In this document: positions 23,121 through 48,563 of the stretch, piece after piece
Layout: every line of letters starts with the position of its first letter
Numbering within the stretch: the first letter of the stretch is position 1
NCBI GenBank assembly: GCA_001898165.1
Contig: MKTD01000028.1
Location: 186,001 to 250,000 of the forward strand
Source: Bacteroidia bacterium 43-41
Lineage (GTDB): Bacteria; Bacteroidota; Bacteroidia; Bacteroidales; Dysgonomonadaceae
Reading direction: 5' to 3'
Length of the DNA: 64,000 bases
Notes under the pieces: generated by a model
What the model was told of the DNA's origin: nothing
What the model saw: the letters and a program-made list of their open reading frames with translations, nothing else
The model's database searches: none
Made by a program: the position numbers and the translations under genes

Positions 23121-24458
23121 ATGAAAATATTAATAGCAGGAGCAGGGGAAGTAGGCACCCATCTGGCAAAATTGCTCGGGCAGGAAAATCACGATATCAC
23201 ATTGATGGACAGTAGCAAAGAGCGATTGATGGCCGTTCGCGATAACGCTGAGTTGTTGACTTTCGTAGGAAACTGTACATCGCTGAAAGACCTTACGGAA
23301 GCCGGTGTTACCGATTCAGACCTCTTTATCGGCGTTACCCCCGAAGAATCCAAGAACATCAATGCGTGCATGCTTGCCGCCAACCTAGGCGTCAAAAAAA
23401 CGCTGGCCAGAATTGATAATTACGAATACCTTCTGCCAAAAAACGTAGAGTTTTTTGATAAATTAGGTATTCACTCCATGATTTATCCCGAGATGATGGC
23501 CGCACGCGAAATAGTCTCTTCGCTCAAAACTCCCTGGACAAGAGTTTGGTGGGAGTTATCGAACGGCTCCATCATTCTTACCGCTGCCAAAATAAGGGCG
23601 AACGCGCCTATTGTCAACTGGTACCTGCGCGAACTTCCAAACGTGGGCAAGAAATTTCACATCGTGGTTATAAAACGTGGAAATCAAACGCTGATCCCAA
23701 AAGGAAGCGATCAGATTTTACCAAACGATATTCTCTATTTCACTACGTTAAGAAAAAATCTGGATGAAATGCCTACTATCATGGGAAAAACATCGTTCGA
23801 AACCAAAAATGTGATGTTTATGGGCGGGAGCAGGATTACCATGCGGGCTGTGCAATATCTGCCATCAAACATAAACATAAAAATTATCGAGCAAAACCGG
23901 GAAAGGGCGGAAAAACTCGTTGAAATTTCTCCGTCGAACGTAACCATATTTCTGGGTGATGCACGCGATGCGGAGCTATTACTCAGCGAAGGGATCTCCG
24001 AAATGGATGCTTTTGTTGCGCTTACCGGAAATTCCGAAGCCAACATACTCGGCTGTATGATGGCAAAACAATACGGGGTTAAAAAGACCATTGCCGAAGT
24101 AGAAAATATAGACTATATACCTATGGCCGAACGTTTCGACATTGGTACCGTAATCAACAAAAAACTACTGGCCGCCAGCAAGATATACGAACTTCTTCTC
24201 AAAGCCGATGCCTCAAACATAAAGTGCCTCACTTTCTCGAATGCTAACGTTGGGGAGGTCATTGCGAAACCTAACTCAAAGGTCACCAAAAAACTGATTA
24301 AAAACTTAAATTTACCTTCCGATATGACCCTCGGTGCGCTTATCAGAAACGGGGAACCGATGCTTGTTGACGGTGACACGCTTATTGAGCCTTACGATCA
24401 GGTAATGGTGTTCTTTATGAATACATCATTAAAAAGCATAGAGAGCTTCTTCAATTGA
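23121..24458 (+). CDS. trkA: Trk potassium-uptake regulatory subunit TrkA
   Basis: The 445-residue cytoplasmic NAD(H)/nucleotide-binding gating subunit has two RCK modules. The first Rossmann motif is ILIAGAGEVGTHLAKLL (residues 3-19) with the acidic DSSKERL end of strand two; the second begins near residue 231 (VMFMGGSRITMRAVQYL), where the glycine pattern is loosened. Two RCK-C domains follow each Rossmann unit. TrkA controls the TrkH channel. In many Bacteroidales trkH follows directly; here the next gene is a convergent CoA-transferase, so trkH must lie elsewhere. Confidence 0.94.
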   Translation: MKILIAGAGEVGTHLAKLLGQENHDITLMDSSKERLMAVRDNAELLTFVGNCTSLKDLTEAGVTDSDLFIGVTPEESKNINACMLAANLGVKKTLARIDNYEYLLPKNVEFFDKLGIHSMIYPEMMAAREIVSSLKTPWTRVWWELSNGSIILTAAKIRANAPIVNWYLRELPNVGKKFHIVVIKRGNQTLIPKGSDQILPNDILYFTTLRKNLDEMPTIMGKTSFETKNVMFMGGSRITMRAVQYLPSNINIKIIEQNRERAEKLVEISPSNVTIFLGDARDAELLLSEGISEMDAFVALTGNSEANILGCMMAKQYGVKKTIAEVENIDYIPMAERFDIGTVINKKLLAASKIYELLLKADASNIKCLTFSNANVGEVIAKPNSKVTKKLIKNLNLPSDMTLGALIRNGEPMLVDGDTLIEPYDQVMVFFMNTSLKSIESFFN

Positions 24459-24470
24459 TATTTTCAAAAG

Positions 24471-24497
24471 CGGGATGACTGCCAATCAGTCATCCCG
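24471..24497. terminator. Bidirectional hairpin between converging trkA and CoA-transferase genes
   Basis: An 11-bp perfect stem CGGGATGACTG/CAGTCATCCCG with a 5-base loop lies 12 bases after the trkA stop. The following sequence is only moderately T-rich in each direction, so it is a likely but not classic terminator for both genes. Confidence 0.65.
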
Positions 24498-24562
24498 GCT
24501 ATAAAAATCACTCAACTTTCGCATGTATCAACTACTCATAAATACAGCGAAACTTTAAAAAA

Positions 24563-26065
24563 TCACTTCCTGAATTTCGAAAAATCGGCATTGATCATGT
24601 CTCCGGTTTCCATAAATGCTTTATGAAATTCGAAGCACGCGTATAAATTCTGCGGCGTATGCCCTTTTTTGGTCAGGCTAAGATAGTCGTGCAACAACGG
24701 ACGATAGTCAGGATGCGCACAATTCTCAATGATCTCTTCGGCACGTGCATAGGTTCCCTTACCGCGCAAATCGGCAACACCATACTCCGATACAATTACC
24801 TTTACAGAGTGTTCGCTATGGTCTTCGTGAGCCACTTTCGGAACGATGGCGCTTATTTTTCCACCTTTTGCAGTAGATGGGGTTAAGAAAACAGAGATAT
24901 ATGCGCTTCTGGTGAAATCACCCGAGCCACCAATTCCGTTCATCATCATATTGCCCATCACGTGGGTAGAGTTGATGTTTCCGAAGATATCTGCTTCGAG
25001 AGCCGTATTCACGCCAATAACTCCCAAACGGCGCACAAGTCCCGGATTGTTGGAAATTTCCGACGGGCGAAGCACGAGTTTATTCTTGAAGAAATCCAAA
25101 TCGCGATAAAAGCGCTCCATGGCTTCGTTACTTAACGTAAGCGAACAACCGCTGGCGAAAGAGATGTGCCCCTTCTGCATCATGTCCAATACCGCGTCCT
25201 GAATAACCTCGGTATATACTTCGAAACGGGGAATATCCTTATTCTGTGCCATGGACGCAAGAACGGCATTGGCAATATTTCCCACACCCGACTGAATGGG
25301 CAGGAAAGTGGGCGGGATATGCCCTTTTTTCAATTCCGAAACGAAAAAGTTAGATACATTCTCTCCGATTTTTGCCGTGATCTCGTCAACAGGTGCAAAT
25401 CCGCTGCCTTCGTTCTCTTCACTGGTCTTAACCACATATATTTTTGCCGGATCAACTTTCACGTATTCCAACCCAACACGTCCCTGTACTTCAAAAATAT
25501 TTATATGCCGGCGTTTTGGAGGATCCTGAAGTTCATATAAATCATGTACTCCGCGCATTTTGGCGGGTACCTTGTCGTTAAGTTCAACAATCACTATTTT
25601 TGCTAAACGGCAAATAGTGGGCATAATTCCAACACCGCTGGTGGGAACTATCTCCCCCGAATCGGTAACTTCACAAGCTTCCACAATGGCAACATCAACG
25701 CCGCCTAAAAATCCGTAACGGATTTCCTGTGCCACTTGCGATAAGTGCATATCAAAATACTGTACCGGTTCATGCTGCACGGCATTAATGGCATTGCGCA
25801 TATCTTTGTTAGTCTGGTACGGTGTGCGGAACTTTACCGCATTGGCGCGGGCCAGGCTGCCGTCGATAGAATCGCCGGTTGAAGCGCCGGTAAACATACC
25901 GATCTTGAACGGATTGCCTTTGGCGTGCTCTTCTTCGGCACGTTTTGCAATTTCAACCGGAACCACTTTGGGGCATCCGGCATGTGTAAAGCCGCTGAAA
26001 CCCACATTGTCATTGTGGTTGACAAGCGCAGCAGCTTCTTTCGCTGTTACATAAGTAAGACCCAT
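24563..26065 (-). CDS. Acetyl-CoA hydrolase/transferase family (probably succinyl-CoA:acetate CoA-transferase)
   Basis: The 500-residue family I CoA-transferase exchanges CoA between acyl groups; acetate and succinate are the usual substrates of close relatives of AarC/Cat1 type. The glutamate that forms the glutamyl-CoA thioester is in FEVYTEVIQDAVLDMM (about residues 288-303). Family motifs GFSGFTHAGCPKVVP, FTGASTGDSIDG, GIGGSGDFTRSAY and HSVKVIVSEYGVADLRG are intact. In a fermenting anaerobe it would allow acetate formation with energy conservation via succinyl-CoA. It is a single-gene unit, converging on trkA. Choice between hydrolase and transferase cannot be settled by sequence alone. 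Confidence 0.88.
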   Translation of the reverse strand: MGLTYVTAKEAAALVNHNDNVGFSGFTHAGCPKVVPVEIAKRAEEEHAKGNPFKIGMFTGASTGDSIDGSLARANAVKFRTPYQTNKDMRNAINAVQHEPVQYFDMHLSQVAQEIRYGFLGGVDVAIVEACEVTDSGEIVPTSGVGIMPTICRLAKIVIVELNDKVPAKMRGVHDLYELQDPPKRRHINIFEVQGRVGLEYVKVDPAKIYVVKTSEENEGSGFAPVDEITAKIGENVSNFFVSELKKGHIPPTFLPIQSGVGNIANAVLASMAQNKDIPRFEVYTEVIQDAVLDMMQKGHISFASGCSLTLSNEAMERFYRDLDFFKNKLVLRPSEISNNPGLVRRLGVIGVNTALEADIFGNINSTHVMGNMMMNGIGGSGDFTRSAYISVFLTPSTAKGGKISAIVPKVAHEDHSEHSVKVIVSEYGVADLRGKGTYARAEEIIENCAHPDYRPLLHDYLSLTKKGHTPQNLYACFEFHKAFMETGDMINADFSKFRK

Positions 26066-26106
26066 AAATTCTTTTTATTTTTATTGTTATTTTTTCGATA
26101 ATACCA

Positions 26107-26523
26107 TTAGTATTTTCTGTTCAAAATCTCACTGTAAATGACTGCCTTACGAATTTCAGACTGCCCGTCTTTGCTTCTCAATTGTTCCAGAATGGGATGG
26201 ATGGTTTCCTCCACTTTCATCTCCTGGTGATTGTCGAACAACCCGGATGCGAACATGGAGCCCTTCAACGAAGATTCACCCTCAAAATTAGTTACCAGAT
26301 CCAAAGAAGACTGAAACTCCCGGTAAGTACGTCCGACAGGGTTGATGGTTGATCTTGCAAGCTGACTTTTACTCTTTACAGTTTTTGGTGTTGGCGGCGG
26401 GATTGGTTGTTTTTCAGGTTGGGTACTTTCACTTATCTTCTTTCTCTTCTTAGAATCATTAAAAATTCCAAAAACAACGAAAGCAAGCAGGAGTATTAAA
26501 TAAATGATATCGCCAAATTCCAT
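26107..26523 (-). CDS. Small single-pass membrane protein, unknown function
   Basis: The 138-residue protein starts MEFGDIIYLILLLAFVVFGI: one N-terminal transmembrane helix followed by a basic, proline-rich linker (NDSKKRKK, QPIPPPTPKTVKSK) and a soluble tail of about 80 residues ending in the conserved-looking KAVIYSEILNRKY. Base 26523 is preferred over an upstream ATG at 26550 because it puts the helix at the N-terminus. It lies 42 bases before (upstream of) the CoA-transferase start on the same strand. The transcript leader carries a promoter and terminator-like hairpin at 26588-26705, suggesting attenuation. I do not recognise the family. Confidence 0.6.
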   Translation of the reverse strand: MEFGDIIYLILLLAFVVFGIFNDSKKRKKISESTQPEKQPIPPPTPKTVKSKSQLARSTINPVGRTYREFQSSLDLVTNFEGESSLKGSMFASGLFDNHQEMKVEETIHPILEQLRSKDGQSEIRKAVIYSEILNRKY

Positions 26524-26587
26524 AAATTGATTAATTTTGCAGTCCGACAAAAGTAATCAATTTTCACGAATAAAGGAAGGGTTATTC

Positions 26588-26670
26588 AAAAAAACAGGGG
26601 CAACTTCACAGCCGCCCCTGATTGTTTAACCAAAACCTTAACTATGAAAAAATTTTTATTTTTTCGTTCG
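26588..26670 (-). ncRNA. Candidate small RNA or attenuated leader
   Basis: A consensus promoter on the minus strand (26674-26705) would start RNA near 26670. About 50 bases later comes a stem CAGGGGC/GCCCCTG (26595-26620, 12-base loop) directly followed by TTTTTTT, a textbook intrinsic terminator. The predicted RNA is about 80 nt. It either ends there as a small RNA or reads through into the membrane protein gene starting at 26523. The plus strand of this stretch holds only a 9-codon frame MKKFLFFRS. Confidence 0.5.
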
Positions 26671-26673
26671 TGA

Positions 26674-26705
26674 CAAAAGTAAAACAAGAATTTAGATTTT
26701 ACAAA
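26674..26705 (-). promoter_or_regulatory. Consensus minus-strand promoter (TTTG - 20 bp - TACTTTTG)
   Basis: On the minus strand TTTG (26705-26702) and TACTTTTG (26681-26674) are separated by exactly 20 bases, the same geometry as the tRNA-fMet promoter in this window. Confidence 0.7.
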
Positions 26706-26727
26706 TATTTTAATTTAAAATATACTA

Positions 26728-26850
26728 AGAAACTATTTTAATTTTTTTTATGTACTGTTTTTTAGTCATTTTTTTGATGGATTTGGATTTTTGTTTCGCA
26801 TCGTATAGCGGGCTATCCCGGGAATAAGAAAAAATTACAGCAAAAAAGAT
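26728..26850. repeat. MITE-like repeat, copy C (degenerate)
   Basis: Begins AGAAACTATTTTAATTTT and aligns over about 95 bases, at roughly 85 percent by eye, with the reverse complement of the copy at 50.15 kb, including the TTTATG..ACTGTTTT segment, GGATTTGGATTTT and the palindromic core GTATAGCGGGCTAT. The far end is worn (no clear right terminal repeat) and stops at the miaB start codon, so the element forms the whole immediate upstream region of miaB. Confidence 0.65.
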
Positions 26851-26854
26851 AAAA

Positions 26855-28216
26855 ATGAATACAAATACAAAAACAACAAATACCCCAAAAGACAAAAAGT
26901 TATTTATCGAAACATACGGTTGCCAGATGAACGTGGCCGACTCTGAAGTAGTCGCGGCCATCATGGAGATGGACGGTTACTCGATTACCGAAGACGACAA
27001 GGCTGCCGATGCCATTTTCGTTAATACCTGCTCCATCCGCGACAATGCCGAACAGCGGGTGATACAAAGACTTGACTATTTCAACGCTTTAAAGAAAAAA
27101 AAGAAAGGCAATCTCATTATTGGCGTTTTGGGATGTATGGCAGAGCGCGTAAAATCGGAACTGATTGACCATCATCATGCCGATCTGGTCATTGGCCCCG
27201 ACGCCTATCTCGATTTACCCAATCTTATAGGCAGTGCCGAACGGGGAGAGAAAGCAATTAACGTGGAACTTTCCAAAACCGAAACCTACAAGGATGTGAT
27301 TCCATTGAAAATGAACGGTGTAAATATTTCGGGATTTGTTTCCATTACACGCGGATGCGACAAGTTTTGCACCTACTGCATCGTTCCGTTCACACGTGGC
27401 CGCGAACGGAGCCGCGAACCGGAAAGCATTCTTAACGAAATCCGCGACCTTAGGGATAAAGGCTACCGCGAAGCCACCCTGTTGGGACAGAACGTAAATT
27501 CATACAAGTTCGAGGAAGGTGAAAGAGTTATTAATTTCCCCGCTCTTTTGGCAATGGTTGCCGAAGAGGCACCCCAGATGCGTATCCGCTTTACGACTTC
27601 TCATCCCAGGGATATGACCGATGAAACGCTGGAGACCATTGCCAAATATAAGAATCTATGCAATTATATCCATCTGCCCGTGCAATCGGGCAGCTCACGG
27701 ATGCTGAAACTGATGAATCGCAAGTACGATCGAGAATGGTATCTAGACCGTATCTCGGCCATCAAGCGCATTATTCCCGGTTGCGGGCTCTCTACCGACA
27801 TTATGTGCGGATTTCACAGTGAAACCGAAGAAGATCATCAGGAGACACTTTCGCTTATGCGTGAAGTGGGTTTTGATTCGGCATTTATGTTCAAATACTC
27901 CGAGCGCCCGGGTACATACGCCGCAAAAAAGATGGAAGACGATGTACCTGAAGAGGTAAAAGGGCGTCGTTTGCAGGAAATAATCGATCTTCAGCTTGAA
28001 CTATCGCAAAAAAGTAACGAACAAGACGTTGGAAAAGAGTTTGAAGTGTTGGTAGAAGGTTTCTCAAAACGCTCCCGCGAACAACTTTTCGGAAGGACCG
28101 ATCAGAATAAGGTGGTTATTTTCGATAAGAAGAAGCACAGGATTGGTGAATTTGTAAAAGTTAAGATTACAGGATTTACTGCAGCAACACTTTTTGGGGA
28201 GCCCGTCGGGGAGTGA
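26855..28216 (+). CDS. miaB: tRNA-2-methylthio-N6-dimethylallyladenosine synthase
   Basis: The 453-residue radical-SAM methylthiotransferase adds the 2-methylthio group to i6A37 of tRNAs reading UNN codons. The UPF0004 domain has three cluster-binding cysteines (ETYGCQMN, VNTCSIRDN, GVLGCMAER), the radical-SAM motif is RGCDKFCTYCIVPFTRGRER, and a C-terminal TRAM domain covers about residues 385-450. Length is normal. The region upstream is a worn repeat, so its promoter may be supplied by, or have been disturbed by, that element. No neighbours are functionally linked. Confidence 0.95.
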   Translation: MNTNTKTTNTPKDKKLFIETYGCQMNVADSEVVAAIMEMDGYSITEDDKAADAIFVNTCSIRDNAEQRVIQRLDYFNALKKKKKGNLIIGVLGCMAERVKSELIDHHHADLVIGPDAYLDLPNLIGSAERGEKAINVELSKTETYKDVIPLKMNGVNISGFVSITRGCDKFCTYCIVPFTRGRERSREPESILNEIRDLRDKGYREATLLGQNVNSYKFEEGERVINFPALLAMVAEEAPQMRIRFTTSHPRDMTDETLETIAKYKNLCNYIHLPVQSGSSRMLKLMNRKYDREWYLDRISAIKRIIPGCGLSTDIMCGFHSETEEDHQETLSLMREVGFDSAFMFKYSERPGTYAAKKMEDDVPEEVKGRRLQEIIDLQLELSQKSNEQDVGKEFEVLVEGFSKRSREQLFGRTDQNKVVIFDKKKHRIGEFVKVKITGFTAATLFGEPVGE

Positions 28217-28318
28217 TAAATTAACTTTTTCGGGAGCGAGTAAACATTTTCAAAATAAAAACGTTTTAGTAGATAGACAACGTTGTAAACAAACTATTAA
28301 CATCTAAAAAACAAGATT

Positions 28319-28561
28319 ATGAAATCAGAAGCAAAATTATTACTCGGATTAGGAATTGGTGTTGCTCTTGGAGCAGCTGTGGGTTACATTATGGGAAGCG
28401 ACAAAAAGGAAGAGTGGCTCGAACAAGCAAACGCATTTGCCGACAAAGTACGTGCTAACGTAAAATCCGCTATTTACAAAGGGAAAAGCGAAGTGAGCGA
28501 TCTGAAAGAAGACATTGACGACATTGCAGAAATTGCAAAAAAAGAATTGGCTAAACATTGA
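28319..28561 (+). CDS. YtxH-like small membrane protein
   Basis: The 80-residue protein has an N-terminal glycine-rich membrane segment (LLLGLGIGVALGAAVGYIMG) followed by a charged amphipathic tail (KEEWLEQANAFADKVRANVK). This is the YtxH/GvpP-type architecture associated with general stress. It is the first gene of a tight three-gene set (30-base gap, then a 1-base overlap) with a holin-like and a basic protein, a combination recurrent in Bacteroidetes. Confidence 0.82.
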   Translation: MKSEAKLLLGLGIGVALGAAVGYIMGSDKKEEWLEQANAFADKVRANVKSAIYKGKSEVSDLKEDIDDIAEIAKKELAKH

Positions 28562-28591
28562 AATTTTCTTATATTTTAATACACCACTTCG

Positions 28592-28972
28592 ATGGAGGAC
28601 AAAACGGTTACCGGTTTATTTGAAGAGATGAAAAGTGATGTTACAAGTTATGTAACAAACACTATTGAAATTGTAAAACTCGAAGCTTTCGAAAAAGCAA
28701 GTAAGGGAACAGCGTCAGCTGCCATTACTCTGTTTTTGGCCTGCTTCGTTTTTCTGATATTAGCGTTAGCACTTCTCACTCTCGGATTTTATTTGGCAGA
28801 CGTTTTTGACAGTAATTGGAAAGGTTTTGGCATTGTTACCTTAGGTGCAATTGTCCTTACCTTAGTTTTGTTGTTGATAAAAAAGCCACTGAAGAACTCA
28901 ATTATTAATTCTGTAATCAAATTCCTGCAACGTCAGGAAGACGAAGAGGTTAAATATACAACGAAAAACTAA
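28592..28972 (+). CDS. Phage-holin-superfamily (Holin-X-like) membrane protein
   Basis: The 126-residue protein has a cytosolic helical start (EEMKSDVTSYVTNTIEIVKL) and two strong transmembrane helices (AITLFLACFVFLILALALL and GFGIVTLGAIVLTLVLLLI), then a short charged tail. This matches the putative actinobacterial Holin-X/phage-holin III group, which in chromosomes is not phage-derived and probably has an envelope role. Its last base is the first base of the next gene's ATG (sequence TAATG), so translation is coupled. Confidence 0.78.
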   Translation: MEDKTVTGLFEEMKSDVTSYVTNTIEIVKLEAFEKASKGTASAAITLFLACFVFLILALALLTLGFYLADVFDSNWKGFGIVTLGAIVLTLVLLLIKKPLKNSIINSVIKFLQRQEDEEVKYTTKN

Positions 28973-29352
28973 TGAAAAGTTACAAACTTACTCCACTCGA
29001 CGAGCTCCATCTAGAGAAGAAAAAGTTGCGTGAAGAACGCGCAATCTCAGGGCAACGTTTATCTTATCAGATTCAGTATCTGGCAGATAATTGGGGTTCT
29101 ATGCTCACCAAAGGTGTAACAACTAGCATTAAGAACAAATTTAGTGAAACGGTTGACAACCTGTCGTACGGTTCGTCGTCATCCGTTGCACCCTTTAAAA
29201 CAAAGAAACCGGGAAATCCGTGGGTAAACCTGGCTCTCTCGAACTTGCCTTTAATAAGCGGGATTGCCTGGAGAATTGCCAAGCCGGCCATTTTTGCCTT
29301 TGCTGCAAAAAAAATTACCGGCAGATTGTTTGGGTGGAAAAAACGAAAATAA
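28972..29352 (+). CDS. Basic protein of the YtxH/holin-like cluster, unknown
   Basis: The 126-residue, lysine-rich protein has a charged helical N-terminus (LDELHLEKKKLREERAISGQ) and one or two weak hydrophobic stretches near the C-terminus (NLPLISGIAWRIAKPAIFAF), ending in KKITGRLFGWKKRK. It overlaps the holin-like gene by one base, so it belongs to the same operon. It is probably a membrane-associated partner. I do not recognise a defined family. Confidence 0.65.
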   Translation: MKSYKLTPLDELHLEKKKLREERAISGQRLSYQIQYLADNWGSMLTKGVTTSIKNKFSETVDNLSYGSSSSVAPFKTKKPGNPWVNLALSNLPLISGIAWRIAKPAIFAFAAKKITGRLFGWKKRK

Positions 29353-47102: not shown

Positions 47103-48395
47103 ATGAAAAAAGTACTTATTTTATTGGGTTTTTGCCTGCTGTTTTCCCTGCAGGCAGATGCCCAAAAATGGTTGAATAAACTGGGCAACACGGCAAAGGA
47201 AGCGGCAAAGAGCACCATGGAGCGACGGGTGGAACAGAAAACAGAAGAAGTGACCGAGGGGACGCCGAATGAAGCAGAAAGCACGGTAATAAAAGAAGAA
47301 ACAGAAGCGGAAGAGAAGGAAGAGACCGGCCTGAAAGAGAGCAAGGAGGAGGCAAAGGAGCCCCCGCAAAAATTGGTTAGCGCCGGTAAGTACGATTTCG
47401 TGCCGGGAGATAAAATCCTCTATTTTGAAGATTTCTCGCAGGATGCCATCGGCGACTTCCCGGCTCTGTGGACAACAAACGGAAGCGGCGAAGTGAAAAC
47501 GGTGAATATTGCTCCCGGAAAGTGGTTCCATATGAACGGGGAGGATGCGGTATATTGTTACACGCGTCAGATAGATTTTCCGGATAATTTTATTGTGGAG
47601 TTCGACATTATTCCGGAAAAAAAAGACAAAGATTATTATTCCAGTATTCAATTCTCACTTTATCAGGAGAGAACAGGTGAAGCAAAAGAGATGAATGACG
47701 AGTTGTATCCGGGCGAAGCGGGGCTTCATATCGATCTGGGGTTTAGCAGCATGGATACTAGCTGGGAGACTAGGGGCTACAAGGAAGGTGATAATTTAGA
47801 CTGGCTTAGCGGACAGGGAGGTAAAAATCCGGTCCTCCTCGAAAAAGTGAACCACGTGATCCTCTGGATTCAGAAACGCCGGGTACGCATTTATCATCAG
47901 AATGAAAAAGTGTTGGATATGCCTACCAACATCTATCCCGATGTGAAGTTCAACCGCATGCGCTTCTCGGGATGGGATAGATACAGCGCGCCGTATGTGA
48001 CGAACCTTAAAATAACAACCGCATCGCCCGACACGCGCAGCAAACTGATTACCGAAGGAAAACTGGTTACCTACGGCATCACCTTCGATGTGAACAAGGC
48101 AGATGTGAAGCCCGAATCGTACGGGACACTGAAGAGCATTGCCGATGTACTGAACGAAAACGCCTCCGTTAAAGTAAAGATCGTGGGGCATACCGACAGC
48201 GACGGCGATGATACCATGAACCTCGAACTGTCGCGACGCCGGGCCGAATCGGTGAAGAATGAACTGGTCAAAAACTTCGGGATCGATGCGTCGCGGATGG
48301 AGACCGAAGGGGCGGGCGAAACCAAACCGGTTGCACCCAATGATATTCCGGCCAACAAGGCACAAAACCGCAGGGTCGAGTTTGTCAAGTTATGA
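47103..48395 (+). CDS. OmpA-family outer-membrane or periplasmic protein
   Basis: The 430-residue exported protein has a signal peptide (MKKVLILLGFCLLFSLQADA), a charged Glu/Lys-rich linker (about 30-90), a central beta-sandwich-like domain (about 95-300; YDFVPGDKILYFEDFSQDAI, with a concanavalin-like pattern) and a C-terminal OmpA peptidoglycan-binding domain (320-430: VKIVGHTDSDGDDTMNLELS, RRRAESVKNELVKNFGID). It probably tethers a surface or periplasmic domain to the cell wall. An ATG six bases upstream (47097) is an alternative start; the frame stays open further upstream inside the Yip1 gene, which I do not accept as coding. Confidence 0.86.
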   Translation: MKKVLILLGFCLLFSLQADAQKWLNKLGNTAKEAAKSTMERRVEQKTEEVTEGTPNEAESTVIKEETEAEEKEETGLKESKEEAKEPPQKLVSAGKYDFVPGDKILYFEDFSQDAIGDFPALWTTNGSGEVKTVNIAPGKWFHMNGEDAVYCYTRQIDFPDNFIVEFDIIPEKKDKDYYSSIQFSLYQERTGEAKEMNDELYPGEAGLHIDLGFSSMDTSWETRGYKEGDNLDWLSGQGGKNPVLLEKVNHVILWIQKRRVRIYHQNEKVLDMPTNIYPDVKFNRMRFSGWDRYSAPYVTNLKITTASPDTRSKLITEGKLVTYGITFDVNKADVKPESYGTLKSIADVLNENASVKVKIVGHTDSDGDDTMNLELSRRRAESVKNELVKNFGIDASRMETEGAGETKPVAPNDIPANKAQNRRVEFVKL

Positions 48396-48455
48396 TTATA
48401 AACAACGGTCAGTCAACGCACATCTGTTGGCTGACCATTATTAAACCGAATAATC

Positions 48456-48563
48456 ATGAAAAGAATTACGATTGTTATCCTATGCCAACTGGTACCCTTT
48501 TGCTCTTTTGCAGTGGAGCGGTATGATCGTAAAACAATAATAAATATAACGTGCTATGACTAA
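48456..48563 (+). CDS. Possible 35-residue secreted peptide or gene remnant
   Basis: The frame reads MKRITIVILCQLVPFCSFA followed by a short tail, so it looks like a signal peptide with 16 further residues. Its end overlaps the next ATG by eight bases (ATGACTAA). It may be a leader peptide that couples translation, a tiny exported peptide, or the residue of a deleted gene. Confidence 0.35.
   Translation: MKRITIVILCQLVPFCSFAVERYDRKTIINITCYD

Follow-up and report, generated by a model that had tools for sequence, protein, structure and literature searches.

Does the short stretch between a miaB-type gene and a small membrane-protein gene of Bacteroidia bacterium 43-41 hold a true small RNA gene, and if so, what would the RNA do? 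The locus lies in 64,000 nucleotides of contig C28 (MKTD01000028.1, positions 186,001 to 250,000; hereafter the window), in a 3.6-Mb genome. A first-pass annotation of these letters had read the minus strand as a promoter and an intrinsic terminator enclosing a small RNA, and had added that the transcript could be an attenuator of the membrane-protein gene that follows. The anatomy of a terminated sRNA stood up to analysis; the attenuator was not supported. To judge from its sequence, the stretch is very probably the gene of a regulatory RNA some 80 bases long, which we call the miaB-side RNA. A near-invariant seed, the neighbourhood of miaB and a kinship with the FopS RNAs were not part of that annotation and are described here.

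Direct reading of the minus strand confirmed the parts that had been named, TTTG, a 20-base spacer, TACTTTTG and a run of seven T (Table 1). We take TTTG and TAnnTTTG to be the letters of the Bacteroidota promoter elements, and by sequence the miaB-side RNA has a canonical sigma-ABfr promoter. The hairpin before the seven T is also present, with a stem of 11 bp, seven of them G-C pairs in the window copy, rather than the 7 bp first given. Promoter and FopS model together place the probable 5' end near 26669-26666; 21 bases separate TACTTTTG from the conserved element TTTTTTCATAGTTAAGGTTTTGGTTAA, and five more lie between that element and the hairpin. The fold of the 82-nt strand has an energy of -25.6 kcal/mol (z -3.6), equalled by none of 200 shuffles. 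As in FopS, a single-stranded 5' part precedes an intrinsic terminator hairpin, and the leader and U run of the window copy may pair as a weak A-U hairpin. Promoter and terminator of its own, no conserved ORF and independence from the next gene are, taken from the letters, features of a stand-alone sRNA gene, and they support the anatomy proposed earlier, that of a roughly 80-nt minus-strand RNA with a terminator. In B. thetaiotaomicron and B. fragilis, promoters are reported to consist of two elements, at -7 and -33 (PMC7366714).

Table 1. Features of the miaB-side RNA locus and related loci of the 43-41 genome; coordinates are window positions unless a contig is named.
Feature	Coordinates	Strand	Remarks
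-33 box TTTG	26705-26702	(-)	sigma-ABfr type promoter, read directly; 3/4 columns invariant in 22 family loci
-7 box TACTTTTG (TAnnTTTG)	26681-26674	(-)	20-base spacer after TTTG; 6/8 columns invariant in 22 family loci
Predicted sRNA, about 82 nt	26588..26669	(-)	3' end in U run
Near-invariant 27-nt element, RNA UUUUUUCAUAGUUAAGGUUUUGGUUAA, DNA TTTTTTCATAGTTAAGGTTTTGGTTAA	26652-26626	(-)	proposed seed; 22 family loci
Terminator hairpin, 11 bp, GUGA loop	26620-26595	(-)	fold and covariation, 49 sequences
U7 tail (seven T) of terminator	26594-26588	(-)	read directly
Second, separate TACTTTTG box	26548..26555	(-)	precedes membrane-protein gene; TAnnTTTG here in 22/22 family loci
Membrane-protein gene, 138 aa	26107..26523	(-)	downstream context, outside the RNA
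miaB-type gene (UPF0004, radical SAM, TRAM)	26855..28216	(+)	conserved divergent neighbour
FopS-like locus L031	G000:C28:79852-79923		
FopS-like locus L032	G000:C46:54167-54240		
FopS-like locus L033	G000:C26:135585-135667		
Short RRM_1 protein L160, 93 aa	G000:C11:236491-236703		RbpB-like by domain
Short RRM_1 protein L161	C76:9532-9738		RbpB-like by domain

Taken by itself, this one genome gives evidence barely above chance, because a terminator scan of positions 24000-29000 finds 5 sites where 5.4 are expected; the promoter scan used the E. coli consensus. A chance meeting of promoter and terminator is ruled out by conservation and covariation in relatives. The exact TAnnTTTG occurs at a fitting distance in 42 of 75 non-redundant loci, where shuffling the upstreams leads one to expect 0.6 and gave at most 3 in 200 rounds; at least five of the six box letters are found in 72, for 10.6 expected and a maximum of 21. 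Over 49 aligned non-redundant loci, stem pairing is kept in 94.9% of cells, and the covariation score of 0.886, compared with 0.305 in shuffles, was reached by none of 500. Changes on both sides occur at all 11 stem pairs; this measure is weaker, and 21 of 500 shuffles matched it. The terminator loop reads GNGA in all 49 sequences (columns 67-70 of alignment A1).

A family alignment pointed to the part under the closest constraint. It took 22 of 30 fetched loci, leaving out L003 (identical here in its letters to L002), L025 and L029 (without a clean seed match, or with a match confined to the promoter part) and L022, L023, L027, L028 and L030, which belong to other families. The most conserved part is the 27-nt element, ahead of both promoter and stem: its mean identity to the window copy is 97.9%, an upper estimate because rows found by blastn favour keeping a conserved block, and 20 of its 27 columns are invariant. 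Identity falls to 83-87% for the promoter boxes and 93% for the loop, and further to 72% for the leader, 65-73% for the stem, 63% for the spacer and 61% past the tail; the 98% of the element compares with a range of 52-73% over flanks, leader, spacer and stem. The first-pass annotation had asked for promoter and stem to be conserved in relatives; they are, in the sets of 22, 49 and 75 loci.

How far does the RNA extend? By blastn, 32 of 61 genomes gave a match at E <= 0.001, some of which are incomplete or due to chance, and the RNA is present in all nine other same-genus genomes examined and in many of the family. An exact scan of GTDB species genomes for TTTTTCATARTTAAGKTTTWRGTTAA returned at least 118 loci. 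These rows are silent on conservation of the seed, because it is present in them by construction; promoter, hairpin and neighbours are free tests. The listed loci include Bacteroides (among them B. fragilis), Phocaeicola, Mediterranea, Parabacteroides, Massilibacteroides, Tannerellaceae, Porphyromonas (P. gulae, P. canoris), Barnesiella, Paludibacter, Proteiniphilum, Fermentimonas, Azobacteroides, Prevotellaceae bins, a few other candidate genera and unplaced Bacteroidales, Bacteroidia or Bacteroidetes bacteria; a B. thetaiotaomicron record was not seen among those listed. The seed has two main forms, GGTTTTGG in Dysgonomonadaceae, Parabacteroides and Porphyromonas, and GGTTTAGG in Bacteroides, Paludibacter and Barnesiella. 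A covariance model of the RNA (R1), which scores the window copy contained in it at 91.3 bits, matched 82 of 295 Bacteroidales genomes at E <= 0.001, and in 34 of these the score was 60 bits or higher; the weaker matches include at least one start of a protein gene (G015), and FopS-like loci may be among them. Across the phylum, under strict filters, the model matched four of 395 sampled genomes at E <= 1e-6; all four are Bacteroidales, an order of which the listing shows six genomes.

Furthermore, the surroundings travel with the RNA. A divergent miaB lies within 4 kb in 87 of 121 listed occurrences, at a median of about 190 bases, and an acetyl-CoA hydrolase gene lies beyond the RNA on the same strand in 60 of the 121, of which 100 had more than 1.5 kb of sequence on that side and 72 more than 2.5 kb. 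Neither neighbour was found in 30; in some of these the contig piece ends, and in others the copy lies elsewhere. Counting matches of at least 60 bits, 32 of the 34 genomes with such a match carry a single copy, usually beside miaB, and a few relatives carry two. The 43-41 genome has one copy both by blastn and by the model, which excludes a repeat element. The locus thus presents itself, on the evidence of sequence, as a real, deeply conserved and mostly syntenic small RNA gene, whose expression and function we infer.

Several observations on placement may be added. Three records (L059, L113 and L144, one of them from Paludibacteraceae) have two occurrences close together, and in Parabacteroides gordonii, P. 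goldsteinii, P. intestinavium and P. distasonis (L046, L104, L120, L149) a copy lies away from miaB. A phage-borne RNA was considered and rejected: the two IMG/VR matches (L157, L158), although classed as viral, look like bacterial chromosome because miaB adjoins the RNA in both. Within the window, a weak R1 match of 23 bits at 48393-48481 joins a hairpin after an upstream gene to the start of the next gene and is probably not an sRNA.

The annotation had not recognised a named RNA family, and none is reached. An Rfam scan of the window gave nothing at the gathering threshold apart from four tRNAs elsewhere. At lowered thresholds there were 12 weak matches, of which FopS (RF04319) and BTnc231 (RF04180) are nearest by sense, both recurring in relatives' loci, of which seven were searched. 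FopS aligns end to end with 25 bits against a cut-off of 56 (E 0.06), BTnc231 with 22.6 bits against 80.4. Two FopS copies of the 43-41 genome itself exceed the cut-off (80.4 and 77.6 bits), a third scores 53.8, and the miaB-side RNA ranks fourth in the same genome search (25 bits, E 0.2); conversely, R1 recovers the three FopS-like loci at 33-37 bits. The copies of B. bouchesdurhonensis and B. fluxus reach 31.3 bits with the FopS model, and every copy scored (25-31 bits) stays below 56.

The two RNAs share a sigma-ABfr type promoter, a 5' UUUUUCAU, a later GGUUAA, a terminator with a GNGA loop (GUGA or GCGA at FopS loci, GUGA also in BTnc231), a seed complementary to start regions, and RRM_1 genes in the genome. 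They differ in the core of the seed, CAUAGUUAAGGUUUWGGUUAA in FopS and CAUGGUAUUAGAUUUAAGGUUAA in the miaB-side RNA; the R1' seed of FopS was not found in the latter, whose letters are related yet other, with alignment gaps inside the seed. They differ also in number, one copy beside miaB as against many copies of FopS, which is reported at 12-15 per Bacteroides genome (PMC11697453) and gave 8, 10 and 10 over the cut-off in three Bacteroides genomes, two of which carry the miaB-side copies of 31.3 bits; that multicopy state was not seen for the miaB-side RNA in 43-41. A third difference is that FopS, and not the miaB-side RNA, has a seed enriched at SusC starts. The miaB-side RNA is thus FopS-like in design, as far as its letters tell, while its score, seed and copy number set it apart from FopS; the two perhaps share an origin, yet can be separated. 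FopS itself, reported in Bacteroidaceae by BLASTn with a word size of 28 (PMC11697453), is over its cut-off in 43-41 and in one genome each of Porphyromonas, Parabacteroides, Barnesiella and Proteiniphilum, so that its range is now wider than published.

Other known RNAs offer further comparisons. BTnc231 has the 5' part UUUUUUCAUAG in common with the miaB-side RNA, as well as a GUGA-looped hairpin, and its matches of 22.6-29.8 bits, the highest in a Bacteroides relative, remain under 80.4; its model is longer (154 positions) and has extra hairpins that the miaB-side RNA pairs poorly. GibS of B. thetaiotaomicron, compared by description only, is likewise intergenic and terminated, with a conserved single-stranded 5' seed acting around start codons, and differs in its 145 nt, a second seed and another promoter motif (PMC7366714). 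No published name for the miaB-side RNA was found in the accessible portions of the literature, PMC11697453, PMC7366714, PMC10994844 and PMC12119571 included. Nevertheless, 22 of 49 high-confidence intergenic sRNAs are reported as conserved in two or more genera (PMC7366714), and it is consequently quite possible that a Bacteroides copy already bears a BTnc number.

What would the RNA do? We put at about three in four the probability that it is a stand-alone trans-acting sRNA of the FopS and GibS kind. Transcription would start at its own sigma-ABfr promoter and end at the intrinsic terminator, whose GNGA-capped hairpin would form the transcript end; the 5' part, with the 27-nt seed, would pair with target mRNAs at and near their AUG (complement ...CCUUAACUAUGAAAAA) and in this way block the initiation of translation, as FopS and GibS do in Bacteroides. 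Anatomy, conservation, covariation, synteny with miaB, likeness to FopS and the RRM_1 genes, on which this reading builds, are established here by sequence. Pairing at start codons is likely to be the working mode: the complement of the seed resembles gene starts and the element read backwards is one, TTAACCAAAACCTTAACTATGAAAAAA, so that the start-blocking mode of FopS is the natural reading. FopS-10 has been reported to pair around the susC start codon and to block translation in vitro, a block countered by the RRM-1 protein RbpB, whose binding site on FopS RNAs lies in their 5' portion (PMC11697453). The 43-41 genome has two RRM_1 genes (81 and 78 bits); a part for an RbpB-like protein at the miaB-side RNA is a guess by analogy.

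The earlier suggestion that an A/T-rich part could pair with other mRNAs is upheld as a possibility, and general searches gave it little direction. The 43-41 genome has no second site within three mismatches of the 26-mer, and near-matches to the 18-mer complement numbered 15, the RNA itself counted, against 19 for a reversed control, hence no global excess. An apparent general enrichment at gene starts, 61 at or below -12 kcal/mol where whole-seed shuffles gave 28, was gone once CAU was kept fixed and internal ATGs served as comparison: 74 of 302 genes, sampled from about 13% of the genome, reached that value at their starts and 77 at internal ATGs. A SusC regulon is unsupported as well, since in 30 of the 57 susC-type matches of 43-41 the seed reached -12 at 7 starts, where 25 shuffles of it gave 5.0 +- 3.0; with the FopS seed the count was 11 of the same 30 (shuffles 3.9 +- 2.4, maximum 9), which fits FopS acting on susC in 43-41 as well.

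One gene start was followed through relatives. Of the 15 near-sites, seven with an ATG were read, and two of these open intact frames, of 360 codons (L181, which we take from its sequence to be a FabH-like synthase) and of 226 codons. The latter is an OmpA/glycine-zipper lipoprotein (Pfam OmpA, 85.9 bits), whose start forms a duplex of -18.3 to -19.6 kcal/mol in 43-41. With CAU-fixed shuffles, 18 of 24 orthologues (OmpA-type ORFs at first ATGs, loci L263-L286) pair at p <= 0.05, compared with 6 of 66 neighbouring ORFs, a comparison in which same-genus rows are not independent because the gene was chosen for its match in 43-41. Another choice of starts gave 17 of 23 rows (L273 with a start that is probably wrong; L275 and L287 without one). 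Elsewhere the same level was reached by 31 of 292 sampled genes of 43-41, and by 3 of 24 miaB, none of 22 acetyl-CoA hydrolase and 2 of 19 membrane-protein starts. The miaB-side seed pairs better than the FopS seed at 22 of 23 lipoprotein starts, where several differences replace A by G facing a U of the seed and thus keep the pairing. The duplex stands at -15.3 kcal/mol in 14 genomes with the RNA and -12.2 in nine without it (Mann-Whitney p 0.004, kinship ignored); five of the nine genomes without detected RNA also pair at p <= 0.05, and other sampled genes pair as strongly, four of the 292 at or below -16. We infer the lipoprotein to be a plausible target, at somewhat less than even odds.

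The attenuator first suggested, in which read-through of the terminator would control the membrane-protein gene, draws on the shared strand and on an ATG about 65 bases past the T run. All 22 family loci, the gene being recognised in 20, have a separate TAnnTTTG box between terminator and gene, so that the gene need not depend on read-through, and Bacteroides-type loci have the RNA and miaB while the gene was not found there (tblastn, 1e-5; a fast-evolving gene could escape). The 138-aa protein has no Pfam match at 0.001. We regard attenuation as very unlikely, and we give still less credit to a plus-strand leader peptide that would act on miaB (in the window, MKKFLFFRS). Its start, ATGAAAAA, does belong to the conserved block; the frame, however, can be as short as 6 and as long as 59 codons among 75 non-redundant loci, whose peptides have nothing in common past the first three residues, and promoter boxes and terminator lie on the opposite strand.

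A decoy has more in its favour, although we still think it improbable. In that case the element would mainly be a binding site for an RbpB-like RRM protein and the RNA a sponge or decoy for that protein, acting in this way rather than by pairing, as might be expected from the two RRM_1 genes of 43-41, from general target complementarity that is weak and from a frozen block of 27 nt that exceeds the needs of a short seed. RbpB binds the 5' portion of FopS, yet FopS, bound by the same kind of protein, pairs with mRNAs (PMC11697453). The element, moreover, contains CAU and mirrors a gene start, and lipoprotein starts keep their complementarity across genera; these points argue for the trans-acting sRNA that we prefer.

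If the OmpA-type target holds, the job of the miaB-side RNA would resemble that of MicA and RybB, Hfq-dependent enterobacterial sRNAs that repress outer-membrane proteins, with pairing near the start codon of an envelope mRNA; we know of no sequence kinship between these and the miaB-side RNA. A broader picture, which we hold to be rather doubtful, is a core Bacteroidales RNA beside miaB, inherited vertically, which would throttle a major OmpA-type lipoprotein and a few envelope genes, with the FopS RNAs as multiplied and retargeted offspring or as siblings. If true, it would be the Hfq-less Bacteroidota counterpart of the enterobacterial envelope-stress sRNAs, with a seed that has hardly changed between Porphyromonas and Bacteroides. 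To our knowledge, with place and seed both kept, it would be the deepest-conserved pairing RNA of Bacteroidales; it would also form a new Rfam family. Trans-acting sRNAs of Bacteroidota have been studied in few cases, among them GibS, FopS and MasB of B. thetaiotaomicron, and a single gene that can be deleted in many species would probe the role of riboregulation in Bacteroidales. A near-frozen seed against a drifting stem also makes it testable what holds the seed, many mRNAs, one essential mRNA or a protein. Bacteroides has been reported as without an obvious Hfq (PMC7366714).

Further gene starts are complementary to the seed. The start of a gene that looks from its sequence like an MFS-type transporter, MKTKTIPFIANFTG... 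(L244, minus strand), is the best of the 292 sampled genes for both seeds (-26.1 kcal/mol with that of FopS, -18.9 with that of the miaB-side RNA) and is a candidate shared target. Two 502-codon frames of other Bacteroidales, lipoprotein-like by sequence (L198 in G015, L199 in G152), have starts that match the complement of the seed in 23 of 26 letters.
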